A stretch of 64,000 nt of DNA, taken from NCBI GenBank assembly GCA_028752905.1, contig JAQNBH010000014.1:4361173-4425172 (forward strand), read 5' to 3'. The translations under genes were made by a program, and so were the position numbers. Of the stretch, positions 8,238 through 59,339 are shown piece by piece. Source of the stretch: Cladorhizidae sp. MBARI D1340-BT2. Lineage: Eukaryota > Porifera > Demospongiae > Poecilosclerida > Cladorhizidae. Each line of letters opens with the position of its first letter. Position 1 is the first letter of the stretch. The notes beneath the pieces are model-generated. The model ran no database searches. It was not told the DNA's origin and saw nothing but the letters and a program-made list of their open reading frames with translations.

Positions 8238-8345
8238 AAGTAGGTGTCAGGTGTGTTACTATGGACATGTGTATGTGTTGCTATGACATGTACAGGTGTC
8301 AGATGTGTTGCTATGGACATGTATAGGTGTCAAATGAGTTGCTGT
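8238..8345. repeat. Decayed tandem repeat, 3 copies, containing the exon 4 acceptor
   Basis: The motif AGGTGTCAGATGTGTTGCT recurs at about 8241, 8295 and 8326. The last copy is the start of exon 4. Confidence 0.7.
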
Positions 8346-10321: not shown

Positions 10322-11803
10322 TCAAGGCTTCGGAAAACATGCACGGCTTTCCAAAACGTTTTTGACCTCCTCTAATGATTGTATAGCTTCTCCATAGTTT
10401 CTCAATTTGGGGGGAGGTGGTAGGTCTTCTCCATCTGTAAGTGCTTCCTCACATTCAACAATGGATGACTGTTCAGAAAGGCTTGCTAAGAAGCTTTCTT
10501 CCCAGGTATCATTATCAAACTCAGTACATACAGGAAGATTGCTGTCTCCGTTGACATACTCATCAGGTGAACAACTACCCTTGGAGCCCATTGTCTTTGA
10601 AATGAGTGCACCTAGTACAAATTCTGCACCAATGTCTTGAAAAGGATCTTCTTCATTTAAGCTGGTCACACCCAACTCACTATTAAGAACACCACCACTT
10701 CTGAAGCACTTAGATATCATTTCTGGTTTTACTTCACTCCATGCCTGAGATATCCACCTGATTGCAGTTAGTACATTAATAGACTTTGTTATCTCAGAAG
10801 CACAACTGCAATCGTCAATCTTAGCTAACACATAGCGAAGGAGAAGCCGACAATAATGGACCTTGAAGTTCTGGATGATCCCCAAGTCTAGTGGCTGTAA
10901 TTTAGATGTTGTATTTGGCGGAAGAAAAACTATTTTTATATTACTAAATTTTTCTTTTAAATTTTCTGGGTGGCAACCAGCATTATCCATAAAAAGCAAA
11001 ATTGATCTTAAAAGAGGTCAATACTGCTTCCAAGATTTCTCCTGTCATCCAGGCTTTTTTCTGGTGATAATACTTGACTGGTAGACTATTTTTATCAATA
11101 CAGTACCTCGAAAAGACCTGGGGTTTTCTGATTGCCAGATTACAATAGGAGTCTCCTTATCACCAGCTCCATTCACTATGAAAGTCACTGTGACCCTCTG
11201 CTTACACTTCTTCCCACCCTTGCACTTCTTCCCCTTCTGAGCCAATCCTTGCTCTGGAAGAGCCCTCCAAAAGCATCCCGTTTCATCTAGGTTATAGATA
11301 CCTTCCTTTGCATATCCCCTCAAAATCTCAGGCAATCTCTCCTTATGACTCAACAGTGTCCCCTTGTACATCACCTGATTCTCCACACACAGTCACTCCT
11401 CTAATGTTATATCGCTTCTTCCACTTTTCCAACCATCCATTGCTTCCTTTAAACTCCTTGTCCAGGATTACAGCAATTTCCTTGGCTTTTTCAGTAAGCT
11501 GGGACCCGTAAATGTTCTTTGAGCATGCCAGCAGGTACTATTGGTATAAAGCGTCGCTAATCTCCGAGTATTCGGACACACAAGATCTCTTGTTTGTACG
11601 AGACAAAGAGCTTGAAGCATTAGATTCATACAAGGTGACAATAGATTCCTTGTTTTTCAAAATATCTGAAATTTGGGTCTTTCCACAGCCGAACAGTTCA
11701 CCAAGTGAACGTCAGTAACACCAGCATTCTTCTCAGCTTCCTTGATAACTTCAATCTTTTTCTGTAAAGAGAGATGATTTCTACGCTTGCTCGAAGAAGC
11801 CAT
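10322..11803 (-). pseudogene. Tigger-type (TIGD-like) transposase, frame-broken
   Basis: The likely start is the Met codon at 11803, beginning MASSSKRRNHLSLQKKIEVI, a CENP-B/pogo-type helix-turn-helix. The catalytic acidic residues are all present: NLDETG (Asp near 11286), FMDNAGCHPENL (Asp near 10986) and FLPPNTTSKLQPLD (Asp near 10887). Homology moves between frames at about 11710, 11380 and 11050, with at least one internal stop, so no full protein is made. The acidic C-terminal tail ends at the stop at 10322. Confidence 0.9.
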
Positions 11804-12639: not shown

Positions 12640-13197
12640 CCAGCACTACTAGCTATATACCGAACTATAGTTCATGGAGAAGCAAACACTAGCAGCGATG
12701 TCAGTAGATACTAGCCAGTTTTATTCCACTCATAATTAGCTTCCACCAGATTGCAGGCATTGTGCTTCACCCTGAAGTGCTTTTTTCACGACTGTAAGAA
12801 ATTAACTCTGTAATCAGGAAGTAATCAGGAAGTAAGACATTCAATAAATGTCAACTGTAAAGAAATAGACAAAAACAGGAGCTGTGTTTCACTCAGCATT
12901 TATTTAACACCACCCAGACACTTGTGGCTCTGGGACAGGACTGTGACAGCTGACAGGGCTACAAATAAGTGCTTTATCTTTTATATCACTGGGTAAAACC
13001 AGGGGGAAATACCTAAAGCACAGCACTGGGTTGGTTAAATAGGTTTTACCCAGGAAAATGTGAACACTGATTTCACTGTACAATGTACAAAAAAAACTCT
13101 GTAATATCTGTGTACCCTGTCTTTCCTGTGGACGGAGATCAACTGGTTTTGTTTGTTGATTTCACTCACTTCTTCTTTCAACGTGATTGTCGTGAAT
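12640..13197. other. Intron 4, unique stretch with a short inverted repeat
   Basis: Sequence between the Tigger element and the hAT gene. An inverted repeat CTGGGTAAAACC (12989-13000) and GGTTTTACCCAG (13042-13053) could form a hairpin. It may be part of the hAT element or a small nested element; no terminal repeats could be confirmed. Confidence 0.5.
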
Positions 13198-14717
13198 ATG
13201 GCATCCTCGTCCACCAAAGAAAAGTGTTGAGGAATTTAATTCCAAAGAAGGCACCAAAGCCTTCAAGTTCTTGGCCGACGGGCAGACCCTCTTCTGCAAG
13301 GTCTGTGAGAAGGCTTACAAAAATGTGATTAAGAAGAGTCATATCGGGCAACATGTAGGGTCCAAGACACACGAGAAGAACCGTCAATTGAAACGGAAAA
13401 GAAATGTGATCCATGCACAACTTGAGGATTGTTTCGCCACGACACCGAAGAAATCAAGGGCTGCAATTGTTGGAAAAGAGCTCTGTGAAGCCATCCTCGC
13501 CACTAGTATTCCATTGATGAAGTTGGACGTGCCCAAATTCCGCGGATTCTTGGAGTCAAACATTGGGATCTCCATGCCAGACAGAACCACCCTTGAGAAG
13601 AAGTACTTGGGTGAGTGCTACCAGGATGCCATTCGCGAGATTCAGGACAGTTTGGGAGCCAAACCGATTTGGGTGGGCATCGATGAAACGACGGATGCCA
13701 TGGACCGCTACGTGGCAAATGTTTTGATCGGGAGGCTCGACAACGAGAAGTACCATGCCCCTTACCTTGCCAATGTGGTTTTCCTTGAGAAAACCAAACC
13801 AACTCGGCCACCATCTCTCGCCTAGTCAACAACACCCTCAAGTTTCTTTGGCCCAATTTTGATGCTGATCTGCTGAAGCTGCTTCTCTCCGATGCCGCAG
13901 CATACATGCTAAAATCAGGCCGGGAACTGAAGGTCTTCTACCCCACACTCCTTCACATCACTTGTCTGGCCCATGGTCTCCATCGTGTCTGTTAATCTGT
14001 CCGCGAAATGTTTCCAGAGGTCAATGATCTCGTCTCCACCGTGAAGAGGATCTTTGTAAAAAAGCCCTCTCCCGCATCATTATCTGGAAAGAGGTCTGTC
14101 CTGAAGTTCCCCTTCCACCTGAGCCTGTGCTGACAAGATGGGGCACCTGGATAGATGCAGCTTTGTTATACGCCAAACATTTCGAGAAAGTCAAAACCGT
14201 CATCAGCCAGTTGTCGCCAGAAGATGCAGTAGCCATCAGAAATGTCAGAAATTGCTCAAGAACCACCACCTTGCCTCAGACTTGGCCTTCATTGCAGGAT
14301 ACTGGATACTTGGCTTTCCTTCCTGCTGTTCTGACTCGTCTTGAAGAAGCGGGTTTGCCTTTGGAAAGAGCCTTTGCCAACCTCGACGAAGCCAAGTCCA
14401 ACCTCGACGGCATTGCTAACTAATAGGGGTTGCTGTTACAAAACAAGTTCAACTCTGTGCTGGAGAGAAATCCTGATGTTCTGGTGCTACGCTCAATTGT
14501 GGGGTGCTTGAAAGGTGAGGAAGGCTCCCTCCCCGAAGGATTTGATCCAGGAAACGTCGCCAACTTCAAGTTCTGCCCTACCGCCAATGTCGACGTGGAG
14601 AGAACCTTTTCGGTCTACGAAACTGTGTTGACTGACAGGCGCCACCGTTTGACTGAAAAGAATGTGGTCAAAATTATGGTGACACACTGTTTCTATTCTC
14701 GTGCTGTTGACTGCTAG
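13198..14717 (+). pseudogene. hAT-family transposase, frame-broken
   Basis: The N-terminal part has a BED-like zinc finger (FCKVCEKAY, then HIGQHVGSKTHEKN). The middle contains WVGIDETTDAMDRYVANV, typical of hAT catalytic cores with DETTD. The C-terminal part has VDVERTFSVYETVLTDRRH, a hAT dimerisation motif. Frame changes near 13230 and 13800, a stop at 13993-13995, a further change near 14110 and two stops near 14421 show it is dead. The nearest relatives by motif are the hAT elements behind CGGBP1-like proteins. The element ends were not found. Confidence 0.85.
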
Positions 14718-18228: not shown

Positions 18229-18260
<32 letters not shown>

Positions 18261-18624
18261 CATGTGCATGTGTGTGTATGTGTGTGTGTCATATATGTGT
18301 ACATGTGTGTGTGCATGCGTGTGTGTGTGTGTCATGTGTGTGTCATGTGCGTGTGTGTGTATGTGTGTGTGTGTCATGTGCGTGTGTGTGTATGTGTGTG
18401 TGTGTCATATATGTGTACATGTGTGTGTGGATGCGTGTGTGTGTGTGTCATGTGTGTGTCATGTGCGTGTGTGTGTGTGTGCATGTGTGTGTGTGTCATG
18501 TGCGTGTGTGTGTATGTGTGTGTGTGTCATATATGTGTACATGTGTGTGTGCATGCGTGTGTGTGTGCGTGTGTGCGCATGTGTGTGCATGTACGTGTGT
18601 GTCATGTGTGTGTGTGTGTGTGCC
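18226..18624. repeat. TG-rich minisatellite before exon 8
   Basis: (TG)n with interspersed TCATGTGCGTG and TCATATATGTGTACATG blocks. It runs to within five bases of the exon 8 acceptor and replaces a normal pyrimidine tract. Confidence 0.94.
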
Positions 18625-21432: not shown

Positions 21433-21568
21433 ATAAAGAATGGTTTTACATAACCAAGTTTTACAGAACTATATCCCCTTTGATTTGTGCCCTGTTTTCT
21501 GTCTTTGTGTGTGTGTGGTGTGTGTGTGTTGTGTGTGTGTGCGTGGTGTGTGTGTCTGTGGTGTGCAG

Positions 21569-25925: not shown

Positions 25926-27452
25926 GGAGTCCGAATCCTGATTGAAATTGGTGCGGACATAAACGTGGGGAAGCCCGAAGAACTGCTCATCTGTCTGGCT
26001 GTGCAGTCACGCAACAAGCAGATGGTGGAGTTTCTCCTCAGTCATGGCGTCAGCAACGCCAACATTAAAGCTGCACTGACTATCTCGTGGGGGAGCCACC
26101 TGGACCACATCACAGGGTTGCTACTGGAACACATTGCTGTAGACAGGAGCCGAGACATGGTCAACCTGAGCGGGTTGGAACTCACCTCTCTAAAGCCACT
26201 GTGGGTCCTGCCTTCTTTGGGAGTCAAGCTCAACATGGAGGCCAAAACCAAGCGCAGGCATGTGAGGGAAGGAAGCTTGGGGCACGTCAAGGAGAGCATC
26301 TTACGTAGGAAGAGGTCCATTTCTGAGCTCCGAGAGGAGGTCGAAGGTGACAACTGGACGCCTCTTAGACACCCCTCCAGTCTTTACTCTGCTGGTTGCT
26401 CTTGGAGATCGAGCATCGATACCACAGCACTCGGTTATCTGCCCGACAAGGAAAAGAAGATGGGTATCGACGAACCCGATGTTTCACCTGCAACTTGCAA
26501 GCTTACATCCTGGACTGATAGCAACCTAAAACACTCGGAGGCATTAGCTGTGCAAAGGTTGAAGCTGGATAGTCGAGGAGGTGATGGCTTAGACTCTGGC
26601 GTGCACACACGAACAACACAGCAGAGTTCAGTGCAGAGTTTGGTGCAGAGTTCGCTGCAGAACTCCGCCCTGTTGTCGCCTATGCTGTGTGAGGTCAATA
26701 CCAGTGTTATGTCCAGAACCTCCTTCCGAAAACAAGCACAAGGCGCTATCAGTGGGGCCAAGTCCCTCCCCCGGAGCCAGTTGGACCAATATGCAATCGA
26801 GTGCACGGATGGGATATCCATACAAAACTTCAGTTGCTCTCATAACCTGGGGGATTTCTCTCTTAGTCCTGCTCAGCTGTGTCGCCAATTGCGCAGAGTT
26901 CACAGAAATCGCAGCCGTTCCACGGTGGTCGAATCCAGGAGCTCTCTCTCCGGGTCTCTCACGGATCTCCCGGCCAGCACACGGCAGAGGAGAGGCGTGG
27001 AGGATAAGGGTAGCCCTTCCCTGTCCGAGAGTACAAGTCTTAGCATGAGCAATCCTTCTTCAACTGATTCCTCCCCACAAGTCGAAGTTTCTGGACTTGG
27101 GACGAGCATTGACGGTTCTTTTGAAACTACGACCTCGGATTTGGTAGCGCCGGTGCCTCCCACTGCACCTTCGGGGGAATATTCTGCTGCATTAGCTCGC
27201 AAGAATAGACGGAAGAAGCTTAGCCTGGAGATGATCAGCAAGTCCATCTCTGAGCAAGACGAGCTTGTCAGTGTTCATAACTCCTGCAATCTGATCAAGG
27301 TCTTGGACCTGTCATCCAACCAGCTCAAGAATTTTGATGAGATTAGTAATTTGCAGTACGGGGGAGAGTTTCTATTTAGACAGCTGAGGGACGTGTACAG
27401 GCTGGACCTCAAGCAGAACCTGTTGTCGGAGTTGCCGGTGGATATGATGAAG
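25926..27452 (+). CDS. LRRK2: LRRK2-like exon 13: ankyrin-like repeats, serine-rich linker, first leucine-rich repeats
   Basis: An unusually large exon (1,527 bases, 509 residues) and the longest repeat-free stretch of the gene. Acceptor TTCCCGCAG ends at 25925 and donor GTTAAT starts at 27453. About residues 1-75 are ankyrin-like (LIEIGADINVGKPEELLICL, MVEFLLSHGVSNANIKAAL). A linker of roughly 350 residues follows, rich in Ser, Thr and Arg, with basic phospho-acceptor-like sites such as RRKRSIS. The last 60 residues begin the leucine-rich repeats (LIKVLDLSSNQLKNF, YRLDLKQNLLSELP). Human LRRK2 has a shorter linker in the same place, with serines that bind 14-3-3 when phosphorylated; that this linker does the same is inference. 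Confidence 0.93.
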
Positions 27453-28707: not shown

Positions 28708-28787
28708 TTATTTGTTGTTGTTGTTATTGTGTTGTTGTTGTTGTTGTTGTTGCTGCTGTTGTTGTTTTTGTTGTTGTTGTTGTTGCT
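28708..28787. repeat. TTG microsatellite before exon 14
   Basis: (TTG)n with few interruptions, ending at the CTCCAG acceptor. Confidence 0.95.
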
Positions 28788-33008: not shown

Positions 33009-33096
33009 TTGTTGTTGTTGTTGTTGTTTGTTGTTTGTTGTTGTTGTTTGTTGTCGTTGTTTGTTTGTTGTTGTTGTTTGTTGTTGTTGTTGTTGC
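33009..33096. repeat. TTG microsatellite before exon 17
   Basis: TTGTTGTTGTTTG tract running up to the GCGGCAG acceptor. Confidence 0.95.
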
Positions 33097-35933: not shown

Positions 35934-36226
35934 CTGGTGTACAATCTGTACTGCGGTGTGAGCGAGCTGCACCATCTACAGCCGTGGTTGCTCAATATCC
36001 AGGCACGTGCTCCCTCGTCTCTCGTCATCATCGTGGGAACTCACCTCGACCAGTTCAAGTTGACGCAAGAGGACATCAACAAGAAGAGAATCAAGATGAG
36101 GGCAAAGGTCAAGGAGATGCTGCGTCAGCCTGGCTTTCCGACTGACATCTCCTTTGCTGAGGTGGACTGCTTTAACGATAAGTGTGTCAGTGACTTGCGG
36201 ACGAAAATCAAGGGCTTGATAGACAG
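35934..36226 (+). CDS. LRRK2: LRRK2-like exon 20 (ROC GTPase, C-terminal half)
   Basis: Acceptor TTGTACAG ends at 35933 and donor GTAGGG starts at 36227. It encodes LQPWLLNIQARAPSSLVIIV and GTHLD, the guanine-specificity motif, then a basic helix (KKRIKMRAKVKEMLRQ). Asn at 35994-35996 and Arg at 36006-36008 align with human Asn1437 and Arg1441, both sites of Parkinson disease variants. It ends in phase 2 within an Arg or Ser codon completed by exon 21. Confidence 0.95.
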
Positions 36227-43276: not shown

Positions 43277-43331
43277 TGCCAAGCTGCGAGGCCACAAGAT
43301 CATGGGAGGCATGGTACCCTCCAGCTACATA
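43277..43331 (+). CDS. LRRK2: LRRK2-like exon 21 (ROC-COR junction)
   Basis: A 55-base exon with acceptor TTATCCAG ending at 43276 and donor GTGAGT at 43332. It encodes AKLRGHKIMGGMVPSSYI, aligning with human KIRDQLVVGQLIPDCYV at the start of COR. The last 33 bases form the first copy of a 34-bp array that repeats the exon end and its donor. Phase and homology support the first donor: later copies shift the frame or reach the stop at 43398-43400. Confidence 0.88.
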
Positions 43332-43619
43332 GTGAGTGGGAGGCATGGTACCCTCCAGCTACATAGTGAGTGGGAGGCATGGTACCCTCCAGCTACATAG
43401 TGAAGTGGGAGGCATGGTACCCTCCAGCTACATAGTGAGTGGGAGGCATGGTACCCTCCAGCTACATAGTGAGTGGGAGGCATGGTAGCCTCCAGCTACA
43501 TAGTGAGTGGGAGGCATGGTAGCCTCCAGCTACATAGTGAGTGGGAGGCATGGTACCCTCCAGCTACATAGTGAGTGGGAGGCATGGTACCCTCCAGCTA
43601 CATAGTGAGTGGGAGGCAT
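43299..43619. repeat. 34-bp array of the exon 21 end plus its donor, 9 copies and a part copy
   Basis: The unit GGGAGGCATGGTACCCTCC plus AGCTACATAGTGAGT contains the last 28 coding bases of exon 21 and the GTGAGT donor. One copy has an extra A (35 bp); two have GTAGCC. The first copy is coding. Confidence 0.95.
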
Positions 43620-46600
43620 TTGTACATACTCCACACTTAATCACAGAAAAGGCTCTATAGTTACTCACCTGTTGCTAAGTACAAATGCTCCACACTTAAC
43701 ACTGAACAGGCTCTATAGTTACTCACCTGTTGCTAAGTACAAATGCTCCACACTTAATCACTGAACAGGCTCTATAGTTACTCACCTGTTGCTAAGTGCA
43801 AATGCTCCACACTTAATCACTGAACAGGCTCTATAGTTACTCACCTGTTGCTAAGTGCAAATGCTCCACACTTAATCACTGAACAGGCTCTATAGTTACT
43901 CACCTGTTGCTAAGTGCAAATGCTCCACACTTAATCACTGAACAGGCCCTATAGTTACTCACCTGTTGCCAAGTGCAAATGCTCCACACTTAATCACTGA
44001 ACAGGCTCTATAGTTACTCACCTGTTGCTAAGTGCAAATGCTCCACACTTAATCACTGAACAGGCTCTATAGTTACTCACCTGTTGCTAAGTGCAAATGC
44101 TCCACACTTAATCACTGAACAGGCTCTATAGTTACTCACCTGTTGCTAAGTGCAAATGCACCACACTTAATCACTGAACAGGCTGTATAGTTACTCACCT
44201 GTTGCTAAGTGCAAATGCTCCACACTTAATAACTGAACAGGCTCTATAGTTACTCACCTGTTGCTAAGTGCAAATGCTCCACACTTAATCACTGAACAGG
44301 CTCTGTAGTTACTCACCTGTTGCTAAGTGCAAATGCTCCACACTTAATCACTGAACAGGCTCTGTAGTTACTCACCTGTTGCTAAGTGCAAATGCTCCAC
44401 ACTTAATCACTGAACAGGCTCTATAGTTACTCACCTGTTGCTAAGTGCAAATGCTCCACACTTAATCACTGAACAGGCTCTATAGTTACTCACCTGTTGC
44501 TAAGTGCAAATGCTCCACACTTAATCACTGAACAGGCTCTATAGTTACTCACCTGTTGCTAAGTGCAAATGCTCCACACTTAATCACTGAACAGGCTCTA
44601 TAGTTACTCACCTGTTGCTAAGTGCAAATGCTCCACACTTAATCACTGAACAGGCTCTATAGTTACTCACCTGTTGCTAAGTGCAAATGCTCCACACTTA
44701 ATCACTGAACAGGCTCTGTAGTTACTCACCTGTTGCTAAGTGCAAATGCTCCACACTTAATCACTGAACAGGCTCTATAGTTACTCACCTGTTGCTAAGT
44801 ACAAATGCTCCACACTTAATCACTGAACAGGCTCTATAGTTACTCACCTGTTGCTAAGTGCAAATGCTCCACACTTAATCACTGAACAGACTCTATAGTT
44901 ACTCACCTGTTGCTAAGTGCAAATGCTCTACACTTAATCACTGAACAGGCTCTGTAGTTACTCACCTGTTGCTAAGTACAAATGCTCCACACTTAATCAC
45001 TGAACAGGCTCTATAGTTACTCACCTGTTGCTAAGTGCAAATGCTCCACACTTAAATCACTGAACAGGCTCTATAGTTACTCACCTGTTGCTAAGTGCAA
45101 ATGCTCTACACTTAATCACTGAACAGGCTGTATATAGTTACTCACCTGTTGCTAAGTGCAAATGCTCCACACTTAATCACTGAACAGGCTCTATAGTTAC
45201 TCACCTGTTGCTAAGTGCAAATGCTCCACACTAATCACTGAACAGGCTCTATAGTTACTCACCTGTTGCTAAGTGCAAATGCTCCACACTTAATCACTGA
45301 ACAGGCTGTATATAGTTACTCACCTGTTGCTAAGTGCAAATGCTCCACACTTAATCACTGAACAGGCTCTATAGTTACTCACCTGTTGCTAAGTGCAAAT
45401 GCTCCACACTTAATCACTGAACAGGCTCTATAGTTACTCACCTGTTGCTAAGTACAAATGCTCCACACTTAATCACTGAACAGGCTCTATAGTTACTCAC
45501 CTGTTGCTAAGTACAAATGCTCCACACTTAATCACTGAACAGGCTCTATAGTTACTCACCTGTTGCTAAGTGCAAATGCTCCACACTTAATCACTGAACA
45601 GGCTCTATAGTTACTCACCTGTTGCTAAGTGCAAATGCTCCACACTTAATCACTGAACAGGCTGTATAGTTACTCACCTGTTGCTAAGTGCAAATGCTCC
45701 ACACTTAATCACTGAACAGGCTGTATAGTTACTCACCTGTTGCTAAGTGCAAATGCTCCACACTTAATCACTGAACAGGCTCTATAGTTACTCACCTGTT
45801 GCTAAGTGCAAATGCTCCACACTTAATCACTGAACAGGCTCTATAGTTACTCGCCTGTTCCTAAGTGCAAATGCTCCACACTTAATCACTGAACAGGCTC
45901 TATAGTTACTCACCTGTTGCTAAGTGCAAATGCTCCACACTTAATCACTGAACAGGCTCTGTAGTTACTCACCTGTTGCTAAGTGCAAATGCTCCACACT
46001 TAACACTGAACAGGCTCTATAGTTACTCACCTGTTCCTAAGTGCAAATGCTCCACACTTAATCACTGAACAGGCTCTATAGTTACTCACCTGTTGCTAAG
46101 TGCAAATGCTCCACACTTAATCACTGAACAGGCTCTGTAGTTACTCACCTGTTGCTAAGTGCAAATGCTCCACACTTAATCACTGAACAGGCTCTACAGT
46201 TACTCACCTGTTGCTAAGTGCAAATGCTCCACACTTAATCACTGAACAGGCTCTATAGTTACTCACCTGTTGCTAAGTGCAAATGCTCCACACTTAATCA
46301 CTGAACAGGCTCTATAGTTACTCACCTGTTGCTAAGTGCAAATGCTCCACACTTAATCACTGAACAGGCTCTATAGTTACTCACCTGTTGCTAAGTGCAA
46401 ATGCTCCACACTTAATCACTGAACAGGCTCTATAGTTACTCGCCTGTTCCTAAGTGCAAATGCTCCACACTTAATCACTGAACAGGCTCTATAGTTACTC
46501 ACCTGTTGCTAAGTGCAAATGCTCCACACTTAATCACTGAACAGGCTCTATAGTTACTCACCTGTTGCTAAGTGCAAATGCTCCACACTTAATCACTGAA

Positions 46601-49600
46601 CAGGCTCTTTAGTTACTCACCTGTTGCTAAGTGCAAATGCTCCACACTTTATCACTGAACAGGTTACTCACCTGTTGCTAAGTGCAAATGCTCCACACTT
46701 AATCACTGAACAGGCTCTATAGTTACTCACCTGTTGCTAAGTGCAAATGCTCCACACTTAATCACTGAACAGGCTCTATAGTTACTCACCTGTTGCTAAG
46801 TGCAAATGCTCCACACTTAATCACTGAACAGGCTGTATAGTTACTCACCTGTTGCTAAGTGCAAATGCTCCACACTTAATCACTGAACAGGCTCTATAGT
46901 TACTCACCTGTTGCTAAGTGCAAATGCTCCACACTTAATCACTGAACAGGCTGTATAGTTACTCACCTGTTGCTAAGTGCAAATGCTCCACACTTAATCA
47001 CTGAACAGGCTCTATAGTTACTCACCTGTTGCTAAGTGCAAATTCTCCACACTTAATCACTGAACAGGCTCTATAGTTACTCACCTGTTGCTAAGTACAA
47101 ATGCTCCACACTTAATCACTGAACAGGCTCTATAGTTACTCACCTGTTGCTAAGTGCAAATGCTCCACACTTAATCACTGAACAGGCTCTATAGTTACTC
47201 ACCTGTTGCTAAGTGCAAATGCTCCACACTTAATCACTGAACAGGCTCTATAGTTACTCACCTGTTGCTAAGTGCAAATGCTCCACACTTAATCACTGAA
47301 CAGGCTCTATAGTTACTCACCTGTTGCTAAGTACAAATGCTCCACACTTAATAACTGAACAGGCTCTATAGTTACTCACCTGTTGCTAAGTGCAAATGCT
47401 CCACACTTAATCACTGAACAGGCTCTGTAGTTACTCACCTGTTGCTAAGTGCAAATGCTCCACACTTAATCACTGAACAGGCTCTATAGTTACTCACCTG
47501 TTGCTAAGTACAAATGCTCCACACTTAATCACTGAACAGGCTCTATAGTTACTCACCTTTTGCTAAGTGCAAATGCTCCACACTTAATCACTGAACAGGC
47601 TGTATAGTTACTCACCTGTTGCTAAGTGCAAATGCTCCACACTTAATCACTGAACAGGCTCTATAGTTACTCACCTGTTGCTAAGTGCAAATGCTCCACA
47701 CTTAATCACTGAACAGGCTGTATAGTTACTCACCTGTTGCTAAGTGCAAATGCTCCACACTTAATCACTGAACAGGCTCTATAGTTACTCACCTGTTGCT
47801 AAGTGCAAATGCTCCACACTTAATCACTGAACAGGCTCTATAGTTACTCACCTGTTGCTAAGTGCAAATGCTCCACACTTAATCACTGAACAGGCTCTAT
47901 AGTTACTCACCTGTTGCTAAGTGCAAATGCTCCACACTTAATCACTGAACAGGCTCTATAGTTACTCACCTGTTGCTAAGTGCAAATGCTCCACACTTTA
48001 TCACTGAACAGGTTACTCACCTGTTGCTAAGTGCAAATGCTCCACACTTAATCACTGAACAGGCTCTATAGTTACTCACCTGTTGCTAAGTGCAAATGCT
48101 CCACACTTAATCACTGAACAGGCTCTATAGTTACTCACCTGTTGCTAAGTGCAAATGCTCCACACTTAATCACTGAACAGGCTGTATAGTTACTCACCTG
48201 TTGCTAAGTGCAAATGCTCCACACTTAATCACTGAACAGGCTCTATAGTTACTCACCTGTTGCTAAGTGCAAATGCTCCACACTTAATCACTGAACAGGC
48301 TGTATAGTTACTCACCTGTTGCTAAGTGCAAATGCTCCACACTTAATCACTGAACAGGCTCTATAGTTACTCACCTGTTGCTAAGTGCAAATTCTCCACA
48401 CTTAATCACTGAACAGGCTCTATAGTTACTCACCTGTTGCTAAGTACAAATGCTCCACACTTAATCACTGAACAGGCTCTATAGTTACTCACCTGTTGCT
48501 AAGTGCAAATGCTCCACACTTAATCACTGAACAGGCTCTATAGTTACTCACCTGTTGCTAAGTGCAAATGCTCCACACTTAATCACTGAACAGGCTCTAT
48601 AGTTACTCACCTGTTGCTAAGTGCAAATGCTCCACACTTAATCACTGAACAGGCTCTATAGTTACTCACCTGTTGCTAAGTACAAATGCTCCACACTTAA
48701 TAACTGAACAGGCTCTATAGTTACTCACCTGTTGCTAAGTGCAAATGCTCCACACTTAATCACTGAACAGGCTCTGTAGTTACTCACCTGTTGCTAAGTG
48801 CAAATGCTCCACACTTAATCACTGAACAGGCTCTATAGTTACTCACCTGTTGCTAAGTACAAATGCTCCACACTTAATCACTGAACAGGCTCTATAGTTA
48901 CTCACCTTTTGCTAAGTGCAAATGCTCCACACTTAATCACTGAACAGGCTGTATAGTTACTCACCTGTTGCTAAGTGCAAATGCTCCACACTTAATCACT
49001 GAACAGGCTCTATAGTTACTCACCTGTTGCTAAGTGCAAATGCTCCACACTTAATCACTGAACAGGCTGTATAGTTACTCACCTGTTGCTAAGTGCAAAT
49101 GCTCCACACTTAATCACTGAACAGGCTCTATAGTTACTCACCTGTTGCTAAGTGCAAATGCTCCACACTTAATCACTGAACAGGCTCTATAGTTACTCAC
49201 CTGTTGCTAAGTGCAAATGCTCCACACTTAATCACTGAACAGGCTCTATAGTTACTCACCCGTTGCTAAGTACAAATGCTCCACACTTAATCACTGAACA
49301 GGCTCTGTAGTTACTCACCTGTTGCTAAGTGCAAATGCTCCACACTTAATCACTGAACAGGCTCTATAGTTACTCACCTGTTGCTAAGTGCAAATGCTCC
49401 ACACTTAATCACTGAACAGGCTCTGTAGTTACTCACCTGTTGCTAAGTGCAAATGCTCCACACTTAATCACTGAACAGGCTCTATAGTTACCCACCTGTT
49501 GCTAAGTGAAAATGCTCCACACTTAATCACTGAACAGGCTCTATAGTTACTCACCTGTTGCTAAGTGCAAATGCTCCACACTTAATCACTGAACAGGCTC

Positions 49601-51244
49601 TATAGTTACTCACCTGTTGCTAAGTGCAAATGCTCCACACTTAATCACTGAACAGGCTCTATAGTTACTCACCTGTTTCTAAGTGCAAATGCTCCACACT
49701 TTATCACTGAACAGGTTACTCACCTGTTGCTAAGTGCAAATGCTCCACACTTAATCACTGAACAGGCTCTATAGTTACTCACCTGTTGCTAAGTGCAAAT
49801 GCTCCACACTTAATCACTGAACAGGCTCTATAGTTACTCACCTGTTGCTAAGTGCAAATGCTCCACACTTAATCACTGAACAGGCTGTATAGTTACTCAC
49901 CTGTTGCTAAGTGCAAATGCTCCACACTTAATCACTGAACAGGCTCTATAGTTACTCACCTGTTGCTAAGTGCAAATGCTCCACACTTAATCACTGAACA
50001 GGCTGTATAGTTACTCACCTGTTGCTAAGTGCAAATGCTCCACACTTAATCACTGAACAGGCTCTATAGTTACTCACCTGTTGCTAAGTGCAAATTCTCC
50101 ACACTTAATCACTGAACAGGCTCTATAGTTACTCACCTGTTGCTAAGTACAAATGCTCCACACTTAATCACTGAACAGGCTCTATAGTTACTCACCTGTT
50201 GCTAAGTGCAAATGCTCCACACTTAATCACTGAACAGGCTCTATAGTTACTCACCTGTTGCTAAGTGCAAATGCTCCACACTTAATCACTGAACAGGCTC
50301 TATAGTTACTCACCTGTTGCTAAGTGCAAATGCTCCACACTTAATCACTGAACAGGCTCTATAGTTACTCACCTGTTGCTAAGTACAAATGCTCCACACT
50401 TAATAACTGAACAGGCTCTATAGTTACTCACCTGTTGCTAAGTGCAAATGCTCCACACTTAATCACTGAACAGGCTCTGTAGTTACTCACCTGTTGCTAA
50501 GTGCAAATGCTCCACACTTAATCACTGAACAGGCTCTATAGTTACTCACCTGTTGCTAAGTACAAATGCTCCACACTTAATCACTGAACAGGCTCTATAG
50601 TTACTCACCTTTTGCTAAGTGCAAATGCTCCACACTTAATCACTGAACAGGCTGTATAGTTACTCACCTGTTGCTAAGTGCAAATGCTCCACACTTAATC
50701 ACTGAACAGGCTGTATAGTTACTCACCTGTTGCTAAGTGCAAATGCTCCACACTTAATCACTGAACAGGCTCTATAGTTACTCACCTGTTGCTAAGTGCA
50801 AATGCTCCACACTTAATCACTGAACAGGCTCTATAGTTACTCACCCGTTGCTAAGTACAAATGCTCCACACTTAATCACTGAACAGGCTCTGTAGTTACT
50901 CACCTGTTGCTAAGTGCAAATGCTCCACACTTAATCACTGAACAGGCTCTATAGTTACTCACCTGTTGCTAAGTGCAAATGCTCCACACTTAATCACTGA
51001 ACAGGCTCTGTAGTTACTCACCTGTTGCTAAGTGCAAATGCTCCACACTTAATCACTGAACAGGCTCTATAGTTACCCACCTGTTGCTAAGTGAAAATGC
51101 TCCACACTTAATCACTGAACAGGCTCTATAGTTACTCACCTGTTGCTAAGTGCAAATGCTCCACACTTAATCACTGAACAGGCTCTATAGTTACTCACCT
51201 GTTGCTAAGTACAAATGCTCCACACTTAATCACTGAACAGGCTC
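43620..51244. repeat. 59-bp satellite, about 129 copies, each carrying the exon 22 acceptor
   Basis: Units join TTGCTAAGTGCAAATGCTCC, ACACTTAATCACTGAACAGG and CTCTATAGTTACTCACCTG. The last copy ends with AACAG plus GCTCT, where exon 22 begins. Blocks of about 23 units are repeated (truncated units ACAGGTTACTC at about 46660, 48008 and 49708). It fills nearly all of intron 21. Confidence 0.98.
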
Positions 51245-51540
51245 TGGAGCAACTCATTCTGAAAGAGAGGAAGTTGATGGAGAAGGCAAAGTCAAAGTTC
51301 CCGGTGCTAAGAGAAAGTCGTCTCTACCAGCTGATGGAGGACACCAAGCTGAACCAGACAATGGACCGGTCTGAGGTGCAGCAAGCCATCAAGTTCCTGC
51401 ACGAGTGTGGCGTGCTGCTGCATTACAACGACCTCCAGACTAAGCTCAGCCAACTCTACTTCCTGAAGCCCGAGTGGCTGTGTACTCTCATGGCACAGGT
51501 CATCACCCTCAAGCACATCTCCTTTGTGGACGACAAGGGA
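51241..51540 (+). CDS. LRRK2: LRRK2-like exon 22 (COR domain)
   Basis: It starts right after CACTGAACAG, which is the end of the last copy of a 59-bp array of about 129 copies. Donor GTACGT starts at 51541. It encodes ALEQLILKERKLMEKAKSKF, AIKFLHECGVLLHYND and LYFLKPEWLCTLMAQVITL, equivalent to human LEKIILSERK, FLNESGVLLHFQD and PKWLCKIMAQILTV. Phase 0 at both ends. Confidence 0.95.
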
Positions 51541-57729: not shown

Positions 57730-59252
57730 GAGCTAGTAACTTCTCAGGTGTGTGCTGGTATGCTAGTAACTGCTCAGGTATGTGCTGGCATGCTAGTAAC
57801 TGCTCAGGTGTGTGCTGGCATGCTAGTAACTGCTCAGGTGTGTGCTGGTATGCTAGTAACTGCTCAGGTATGTGCTGGCATGCTAGTAACTGCTCAGGTG
57901 TGTGCTGGCATGCTAGTAACTGCTCAGGTGTGTGCTGGTATGCTAGTAACTGCTCAGGTGTGTGCTGGTATGCTAGTAACTGCTCAGGTGTTTGCTGGTA
58001 TGCTAGTAACTGATCAGGTGTGTGCTGGTATGCTAGTAACTGCTCAGGTGTGTGCTGGTATGCTAGTAACTGCTCAGGTGTGTGCTGGTATGCTAGTAAC
58101 TGCCAGGTGTGTGCTGGTATGCTAGTAACTGCTCAGGTGTGTGCTGGTATGTTAGTAACTGCTCAGGTGTGTGCTGTTATGCTAGTAACTGCTCAGGTAT
58201 GTGCTGGCATGCTAGTAACTGCTCAGGTGTGTGCTGGCATGCTAGTAACTGCTCAGGTGTGTGCTGGTATGCTAGTAACTGCTCAGGTGTGTGCTGGTAT
58301 GCTAGTAACTGCTCAGGTGTTTGCTGGTATGCTAGTAACTGATCAGGTGTGTGCTGGTATGCTAGTAACTGCTCAGGTGTGTGCTGGAATGCTAGTAACT
58401 GCTCAGGTGTGTGCTGGTATGCTAGTAACTGCCAGGTGTGTGCTGGTATGCTAGTAACTGCTCAGGTGTGTGCTGGTATGTTAGTAACTGCTCAGGTGTG
58501 TGCTGTTATGCTAGTAACTGCTCAGGTGTGTGCTGGTATGCTAGTAACTGCTCAGGTGTGTGCTGGTATGCTAGTAACTGCTGAGGTGTGTGCTGGTATG
58601 CTAGTGACTGCTCAGGTGTGTGCTGGTATGCTAGTAACTGCTCAGGTGTGTGCTGGTATGCTAGTAACTGCTCAGGTGTGTGCTGGTATGCTAGTAACTG
58701 CTCAGGTGTGTGCTGGTATGCTAGTGAGACTGCTCAGGTGTGTGCTGGTATGCTAGTAACTGCTGAGGTGTGTGCTGGTATGCTAGTGACTGCTCAGGTG
58801 TGTGCTGGTATGCTAGTGACTGCTCAGGTGTGTGCTGGTATGCTAGTAACTGCTCAGGTGTGTGCTGGTATGCTAGTGACTGCTCAGGTGTGTGCTGGTA
58901 TGCTAGTAACTGCTCAGGTGTGTGCTGGTATGCTAGTAACTGCTCAGGTGTGTGCTGGTATGCTAGTAACTGCTCAGGTGTGTGCTGGTATGCTAGTAAC
59001 TGCTCAGGTGTGTGCTGGTATGCTAGTAACTGCTCAGGTGTGTGCTGGTATGCTAGTAACTGCTCAGGTGTGTGCTGGTATGCTAGTGAGACTGCTCAGG
59101 TGTGTGCTGGTATGCTAGTAACTGCTCAGGTGTGTGCTGGTGTGCTAGTAACTGCTCAGGTGTGTGCTGGTATGTTAGTATCTGCTCAGGTGTGTGCTGG
59201 TATGCTAGTAACTGCTCAGGTGTGTGCTGGTATGTTAGTAACTGCTCAGGTG
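57730..59252. repeat. 30-bp minisatellite, about 50 copies
   Basis: The unit combines TGTGTGCTGGTATGCTAG with TAACTGCTCAGG. Each holds CTCAGGTGTG, an AG-GT word usable as either splice site. An 11-unit block repeats (GATCAGG at 58011 and 58342). Confidence 0.97.
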
Positions 59253-59339
59253 TATAGTACATCTGTTGGTGTATCAGGACTTGGTTCTGTACTATCACTT
59301 GTTCCTTAAAATGATTTTTCTAAAATTATTTATATTTAG

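Follow-up and report, generated by a model that had tools for sequence, protein, structure and literature searches.

How can an intron that is built almost entirely from copies of its own two splice sites persist within a gene? This question is raised by a stretch of 64,000 nucleotides from the sponge Cladorhizidae sp. MBARI D1340-BT2, which as a whole is referred to below as the window. It covers positions 4361173-4425172 of contig JAQNBH010000014.1, which is 34,413,668 bases long and belongs to an assembly of 325 contigs totalling 857,237,253 bases. The + strand of the window encodes an orthologue of LRRK2, and in our partial gene model, for which 24 donors were located, the exons on either side of the intron in question are numbers 19 and 20 in the window. 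We consider it probable that two minisatellites have grown across the splice junctions of an older LRRK2 intron, giving a double form of the "mirages" known from lancelets, and that the outer pair of splice sites is still spliced. The extreme, two-ended mirage that fills the intron is taken to be real, pending reads.

Structure of the intron

The intron and its immediate surroundings consist of the following features.

43277..43331, + strand: upstream exon of 55 bp, ending TACATA, the last 29 bases of which open the 34-bp repeat (homology, donor)
43303..43619, + strand: donor array, 34 bp x 9.3 copies with 98% matches, containing nine donor sites (Tandem Repeats Finder)
43332..51240, + strand: intron of 7,909 bp, all but 9 bp within the arrays (Tandem Repeats Finder, coverage count)
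43332..43337, + strand: outermost donor, GTGAGT, giving LRRK2 when paired with the outermost acceptor (translation)
43620..43628, + strand: spacer of nine bases that separates the arrays (sequence)
43629..51245, + strand: acceptor array, 59 bp x 129.5 copies with 97% matches, containing the true acceptor and 129 decoys (Tandem Repeats Finder)
51239..51240, + strand: AG of the outermost acceptor (sequence)
51241..51540, + strand: downstream exon of 300 bp, COR-A, the first five bases of which, GCTCT, belong to the 59-bp repeat (Pfam PF16095, E 3.5e-13; LRRK2 in PDB)

The preliminary description of this DNA had proposed that the intron is almost wholly two arrays, and this was borne out, as only 9 of the 7,909 bp lie outside them. 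Its account of the arrays themselves also agrees with our results: the first (to 43619) copies the end of the upstream exon with its donor, and the roughly 129 copies of 59 bp that it had seen in the second, with the acceptor and GCTCT, correspond to the 129.5 copies found here. The exon edges read TACATA/GTGAGT upstream and CAG/GCTCTGGAG downstream (a slash marks the point of splicing). The 34-bp unit is composed of 29 coding bases from the upstream exon followed by GTGAG, and the 59-bp unit holds the acceptor together with GCTCT, the five first coding bases of the downstream exon.

The GTs of the donors are located at 43332, 43366, 43400, 43435, 43469, 43503, 43537, 43571 and 43605, and eight of the nine sites read GTGAGT while the remaining one reads GTGAAG. 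There are 130 acceptor AGs when the true one is counted; 114 of them, including the true one, are identical over 23 nt, and GCTCT follows the AG directly in 108. Because the AG has been kept in all 129 decoy copies, the decoys are not undergoing purging. The core of the real sites recurs in most decoys, and the difference between them therefore lies in the real exons that flank the former. In the 19 other introns of the gene that were measured, arrays cover 0-92% of the length.

The host gene and its other junctions

The best protein matches of the window are the LRRK2 proteins of many animals, the top two being a JGI protein (48% identity) and that of Branchiostoma belcheri (46%). The Pfam domains of the gene within the window are ANK_LRRK2, leucine-rich repeats, ROC and COR-A, and matches to the kinase and WD40 exons continue to ~57 kb past the window end. 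The two exons flanking the intron were matched by 9 and by 11 of 11 LRRK2 proteins, respectively (tblastn, E limit 10), and the COR-A exon had a single match in a search of the genome. A solved LRRK2 in PDB matches the window protein (E 4e-23). The placement of the exon junction is supported because GGMVPSSYI/ALEQLILKERK aligns to this LRRK2 across the junction without a gap. Human LRRK2 may lack an intron at this position, judging from its exon numbering, although no conclusion is based on this here. Among 42 ROC-COR sequences placed in a tree, the window grouped with the JGI LRRK2 (100/99; 48.5% identity), apart from B. belcheri LRRK2 (47.1%), with the deeper forks weakly placed. Judging from this tree, the lineage of the host LRRK2 is probably distinct from that of lancelets, with a lancelet paralogue as the possible alternative.

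Near copies of splice junctions were sought with a 24-mer (18 + 6 bases), allowing up to three mismatches, within 10 kb on either side. We located 45 of the gene's splice junctions, but not the acceptors of three exons. Near copies were present at only two of the 45, namely the donor at 43332, with 8 copies, and the acceptor at 51241, with 122. The other 43 had none within 10 kb, nor did the candidate AGs (9, 4 and 1) of the three exons whose acceptors were not located. A chance match of five exon bases has a probability of about 0.001. If two junctions were chosen at random, the chance that both would be the ends of one intron is about 0.02 (20 of 946 pairs), a value calculated post hoc.

One further array (8273-8343, 31 bp x 2.3) lies next to an LRRK2 exon whose start is uncertain, with a candidate acceptor at 8327. 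This acceptor had one copy at five mismatches and none at three, and the array was not counted; it is possibly a small decayed acceptor duplication. Downstream of the window, 7 of 8 homology clusters were checked, and one array there ended ~30 bp before a match, outside the acceptor. Another array, 14 bp x 2.1, sits 33 bp after the last downstream homology match.

Tandem repeats make up 61% of the window, 64% of the next 60 kb and 32% of the preceding 30 kb (5 kb of each flank being N). In the flanks of 50 tyrosine-kinase loci, one of them with 1,058 N, the share was 13% at a laxer threshold. These 50 loci were taken from 159 tyrosine-kinase matches of one family, and their 100 match edges are ends of matches, not proven exon ends. 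The survey flagged two of the 50, and neither showed a boundary copy on inspection: in one (L052) the array starts just past the donor without a boundary copy, and in the other (L018) it ends 9 bp before the match and an exon copy was not shown. LRRK2 is thus rich in arrays, and arrays at exon boundaries are not ubiquitous in the genome, as far as a small sample of one family goes.

Products of the possible splices

Each of the 9 x 130 = 1,170 donor-acceptor pairs was translated, with the preceding exon as start and 51540 as end point. Two more features are needed here.

35934..36226, + strand: preceding LRRK2 exon, the end of the ROC domain, stopping two bases into a codon (tblastn, 11 of 11 LRRK2 proteins; donor CAG/GTAGGG)
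43366..51181, + strand: second open pair, in frame, formed by donor 43366 and the second-last acceptor, with 51182 as the next exon base (translation)

A stop occurred before 51540 in 1,168 of the pairs, and two pairs were open. One is the outermost donor with the outermost acceptor, which gives LRRK2. The other is the inner pair listed above, which would add 34 + 59 = 93 nt, or 31 residues, ahead of the COR-A exon. When the true donor was joined to decoy acceptors, a stop was reached in 129 of 129 cases (in the third codon in 123, the ninth in 1, the nineteenth in 2 and the twentieth in 3), and the true acceptor joined to decoy donors led to a stop in 8 of 8. It had been claimed that selection keeps only the outermost sites coding. 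The outermost pair does give LRRK2, but exclusiveness could not be upheld, since the pair 43366/51182, one among the other 1,169, is open as well. We infer that selection may preserve the outer sites.

Probable growth of the arrays

The acceptor array consists of a partial and divergent unit at its left edge and 129 further units. Sixty of these match the consensus and 69 carry 28 kinds of variants, with a mean pairwise identity of 97.3%. Recurrence of variant units was seen at lags of 29, 23 and 52 units, with 11, 10 and 10 matches, whereas none of 300 shuffles exceeded 9 at the lags that were tested. Such block recurrence is the pattern predicted by unequal exchange in blocks. One block duplication inside the array can be delimited exactly.

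46610..47911, + strand: stretch of 1,302 bp whose exact repeat starts at 47959 (sequence comparison)

In addition, units 96-101 reappear as units 123-128 beside the downstream exon. The suggestion of unequal exchange seeded at both exon edges is therefore supported, as both arrays include the edges and the variants recur at the three lags. The blocks themselves are observed, and unequal exchange is the mode of growth that we infer from them. Exact block repeats are also a place where an assembly error could hide.

Neither unit contains coding bases of both sides, and for this reason we take the intron to be older than its arrays. With one unit per array, the ancestral intron is estimated from the coordinates to have been in the order of 50-110 bp. 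So short an intron is plausible because the gene has an intron of 64 bp elsewhere. We suggest that the process would have started with a short tandem duplication across each splice junction of this older, probably short, LRRK2 intron. Both minisatellites would then have expanded until almost no other intron sequence remained, and later growth would have occurred by unequal exchange of blocks.

Probable splicing of the outer pair

Exon definition would favor the outer pair, as a real exon lies 5' of the outermost donor only and 3' of the outermost acceptor only. Since no other sites adjoin real exons, the correct messenger most likely continues to be produced. In the ordinary 59-bp unit no sense GT exceeds 4 of 9 donor consensus bases in a simple count, and there is thus little in it to define a decoy exon. 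Nearly all wrong pairs would run into early stops, and their products would presumably be removed.

Several points weigh against this interpretation. The true acceptor is pyrimidine-poor and no better than most decoys; it has 9 pyrimidines in 16 positions, as most decoys do, within a range of 7-15 over 21 acceptors of the gene. Three acceptor copies read AACAG/GTTACT (46661-46664, 48010-48013 and 49713-49716), the result of one deletion spread by block duplication. The CAG/GTTACT in them agrees with the donor consensus at 7 of 9 bases, compared to 6 of 9 in the true donor (simple count), and these donor-like copies may define decoy exons. Hiding of the decoys by RNA structure was rejected, as neither folding nor donor-acceptor pairing exceeded shuffled sequences. 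Of 300 shuffles, 63% were at least as stable as three acceptor units and 56% at least as stable as five donor units. A donor-acceptor duplex was matched by 17% of 500 shuffles, with a longest complementary run of 6 nt (48% of 1000). Among identical duplicated splice sites, the intron-proximal ones are as a rule preferred, which would predict the use of inner sites. The inner open pair, with its 31 additional residues, means that the outer pair is not the sole choice that could yield a protein. Correct splicing of the outer pair is, moreover, a prediction from the genomic sequence.

Two other properties of the acceptor array may be mentioned. The AACAG/GTTACT copies place an acceptor and a donor-like motif at one point, resembling a recursive splice site. 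The antisense strand of the 59-bp consensus (43629-51245) contains a perfect donor, CAG/GTGAGT, which arose in 6 of 5000 shuffles of the unit.

Relation to known systems

In lancelets, minisatellite-like tandem duplications across exon-intron boundaries that copy the splice signals have been named mirages (PMC3087553, PMC3902484). They were described in Adh3, the globins BflGb6 and BflGb9, troponin C and PGBD5, the last two having been added by PMC3902484, and either boundary, 5' or 3', may be duplicated (PMC3087553, figure legend). Splicing is reportedly undisturbed by the mirages in globin, Adh3 and troponin C (PMC3087553, PMC3902484), and lancelet mirages reportedly yield no aberrant mRNA (PMC3902484).

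We characterized mirages by units that span the boundary, splice signals within them, interior homogenisation that spares the boundary units, length differences between haplotypes, undisturbed splicing and a lancelet host. As in lancelets, the tandem units of the LRRK2 intron span the exon-intron boundary, at both ends (29 and 5 coding bases), and copy the splice signals (9 donors and 130 acceptor AGs). As for homogenisation, the leftmost acceptor copy is divergent, yet block duplications link the copies on the exon side to those of the interior. The lancelet cases have 2-7 copies where counts are given in the passages compared, in contrast to 9 and 130 sites here. In these passages none is described at both ends of one intron, PGBD5 having two repeats at two exons. 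The LRRK2 intron also differs in that only 9 bp of other sequence are left and in that its LRRK2 does not group with that of B. belcheri.

The minisatellite of human IFI6 (6-16) supplies several donors, as does that of the LRRK2 intron; Turri is said to have reported this in 1995. Two downstream minisatellite units of IFI6 are used as donors for isoforms (PMC4526556). Whereas these extra donors serve isoforms, all 8 extra donors of the LRRK2 intron reach stops with the true acceptor, and only one extra donor combined with one decoy acceptor leaves an open frame. A third comparison is intron gain by tandem genomic duplication, for example in potato RdRp (PMC4974935). Tandem duplication adjoins splice signals in both cases. 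However, it creates the intron there, whereas here the intron would predate the arrays, judging from the units, each of which has coding bases of one side only.

According to the preliminary description, no gene with such a layout had been described. This fails as written in view of the lancelet mirages (PMC3087553, PMC3902484) and IFI6 (PMC4526556). What is new here is that both ends of an intron are amplified, that they occupy it nearly totally and that they have reached this size; in searches of one open-licence library we came across no other intron whose two ends were both amplified and abutted each other. An exact 28-base match to an array unit was found in neither viral_contigs nor genome_contigs, which is a weak test because these are collections of viruses and prokaryotes, and relatives of the COR-A exon were absent from viral_contigs.

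Alternative explanations

The decoys might have a function. It is possible, though unlikely in our judgement, that the arrays regulate the gene, the inner sites being partly used to give mostly unproductive mRNA and, through the open inner pair, an isoform with 31 additional residues in COR-A, so that decoy number tunes LRRK2 output. The 1,168 unproductive pairs among 1,170, the one open inner pair and the retention of the decoy AGs would fit this explanation, and IFI6 reportedly uses repeat units as donors (PMC4526556). However, homogenisation (97% mean pairwise identity) equally predicts intact decoys, and the lancelet mirages reportedly exist without aberrant mRNA (PMC3902484). The inner open pair could also easily be luck, since 34 + 59 = 93 is a multiple of three. 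We find it quite improbable that amplification of both ends was tied to transcription or splicing, for example through R-loops or breaks where the paired ends meet, and was coupled to a copy-number-dependent brake on LRRK2. If the gene were dead, duplications of splice sites would cost nothing, and the abundance of arrays (61% of the window compared to 13% of the 50 kinase-locus flanks, the latter at a laxer threshold) might be understood in this way. This is barely conceivable, however, for a gene whose exons, in the stretches that were matched, have open frames and conserved sequence, from ANK through to the kinase and WD40 exons as far as ~57 kb beyond the window, and whose COR-A exon was matched once in the genome search.

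The arrays are known from one assembly alone, the acceptor array contains an exact repeat of 1,302 bp, and a published lancelet mirage was once misassembled in a draft genome (PMC3087553). False expansion or duplication during assembly is nevertheless an explanation to which we give little credence, because 28 kinds of variants are spread over 69 of 129 units and the arrays have sharp edges at both exons. The copy number may be wrong, but the two-edge layout is hard to produce by error. A different origin would be one in which the intron arose from the repeats: tandemly duplicated coding sequence would have created new splice sites, as in the models of intron gain by tandem duplication or by mirages. 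Mirages were indeed proposed as a source of new introns (PMC3087553). However, the 34-mer has only upstream coding bases (29) and the 59-mer only downstream ones (5), which indicates that the intron came first and makes such an origin very doubtful.

Other features of the locus

A 1.5-kb exon of LRRK2 (25926-27452) links the end of ANK to the leucine-rich repeats and includes a long stretch that is serine-rich by eye and has little similarity to other LRRK2 proteins. Several exon starts are preceded, at a distance of 3-7 bp, by the end of a TG or TTG microsatellite (18232-18622, 21506-21565, 28712-28785 and 33009-33095), which takes the place of the pyrimidine tract. A 30-bp array at 57732-59253 begins 41 bp past a donor; its units have CAG/GTGTGT-like motifs and by eye are not exon-derived. 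One intron of 8.6 kb holds transposon pieces at 13196-14717 (+) and 10322-11017 (-), one of them with DDE_1 (PF03184). Relatives of the other carry PF04937, which we take to be of hAT type, and in the transposon search the closest matches reached 81% identity, across 38% of the query. Elsewhere in the genome, 32 of the tyrosine-kinase matches among those listed, mostly partial and some with stops, cluster on two contigs, at C13:38.3-41.9 Mb and C11:30.5-31.4 Mb.

Significance

The intron provides a natural test of how splice sites are chosen among near-identical candidates, by proximity or by exon context, and the answer would be readable from transcripts. Because the proximity rule opposes exon definition, transcripts of this gene would be informative. 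If the arrays did act as a brake, it would work through the 9 x 130 possible introns, of which 1,168 are unproductive, one is normal and one would give a form extended by 31 residues. The case illustrates how far growing minisatellites can take over the sequence of an intron while the intron itself stays in place, and LRRK2, probably outside lancelets, joins the genes with boundary duplications.

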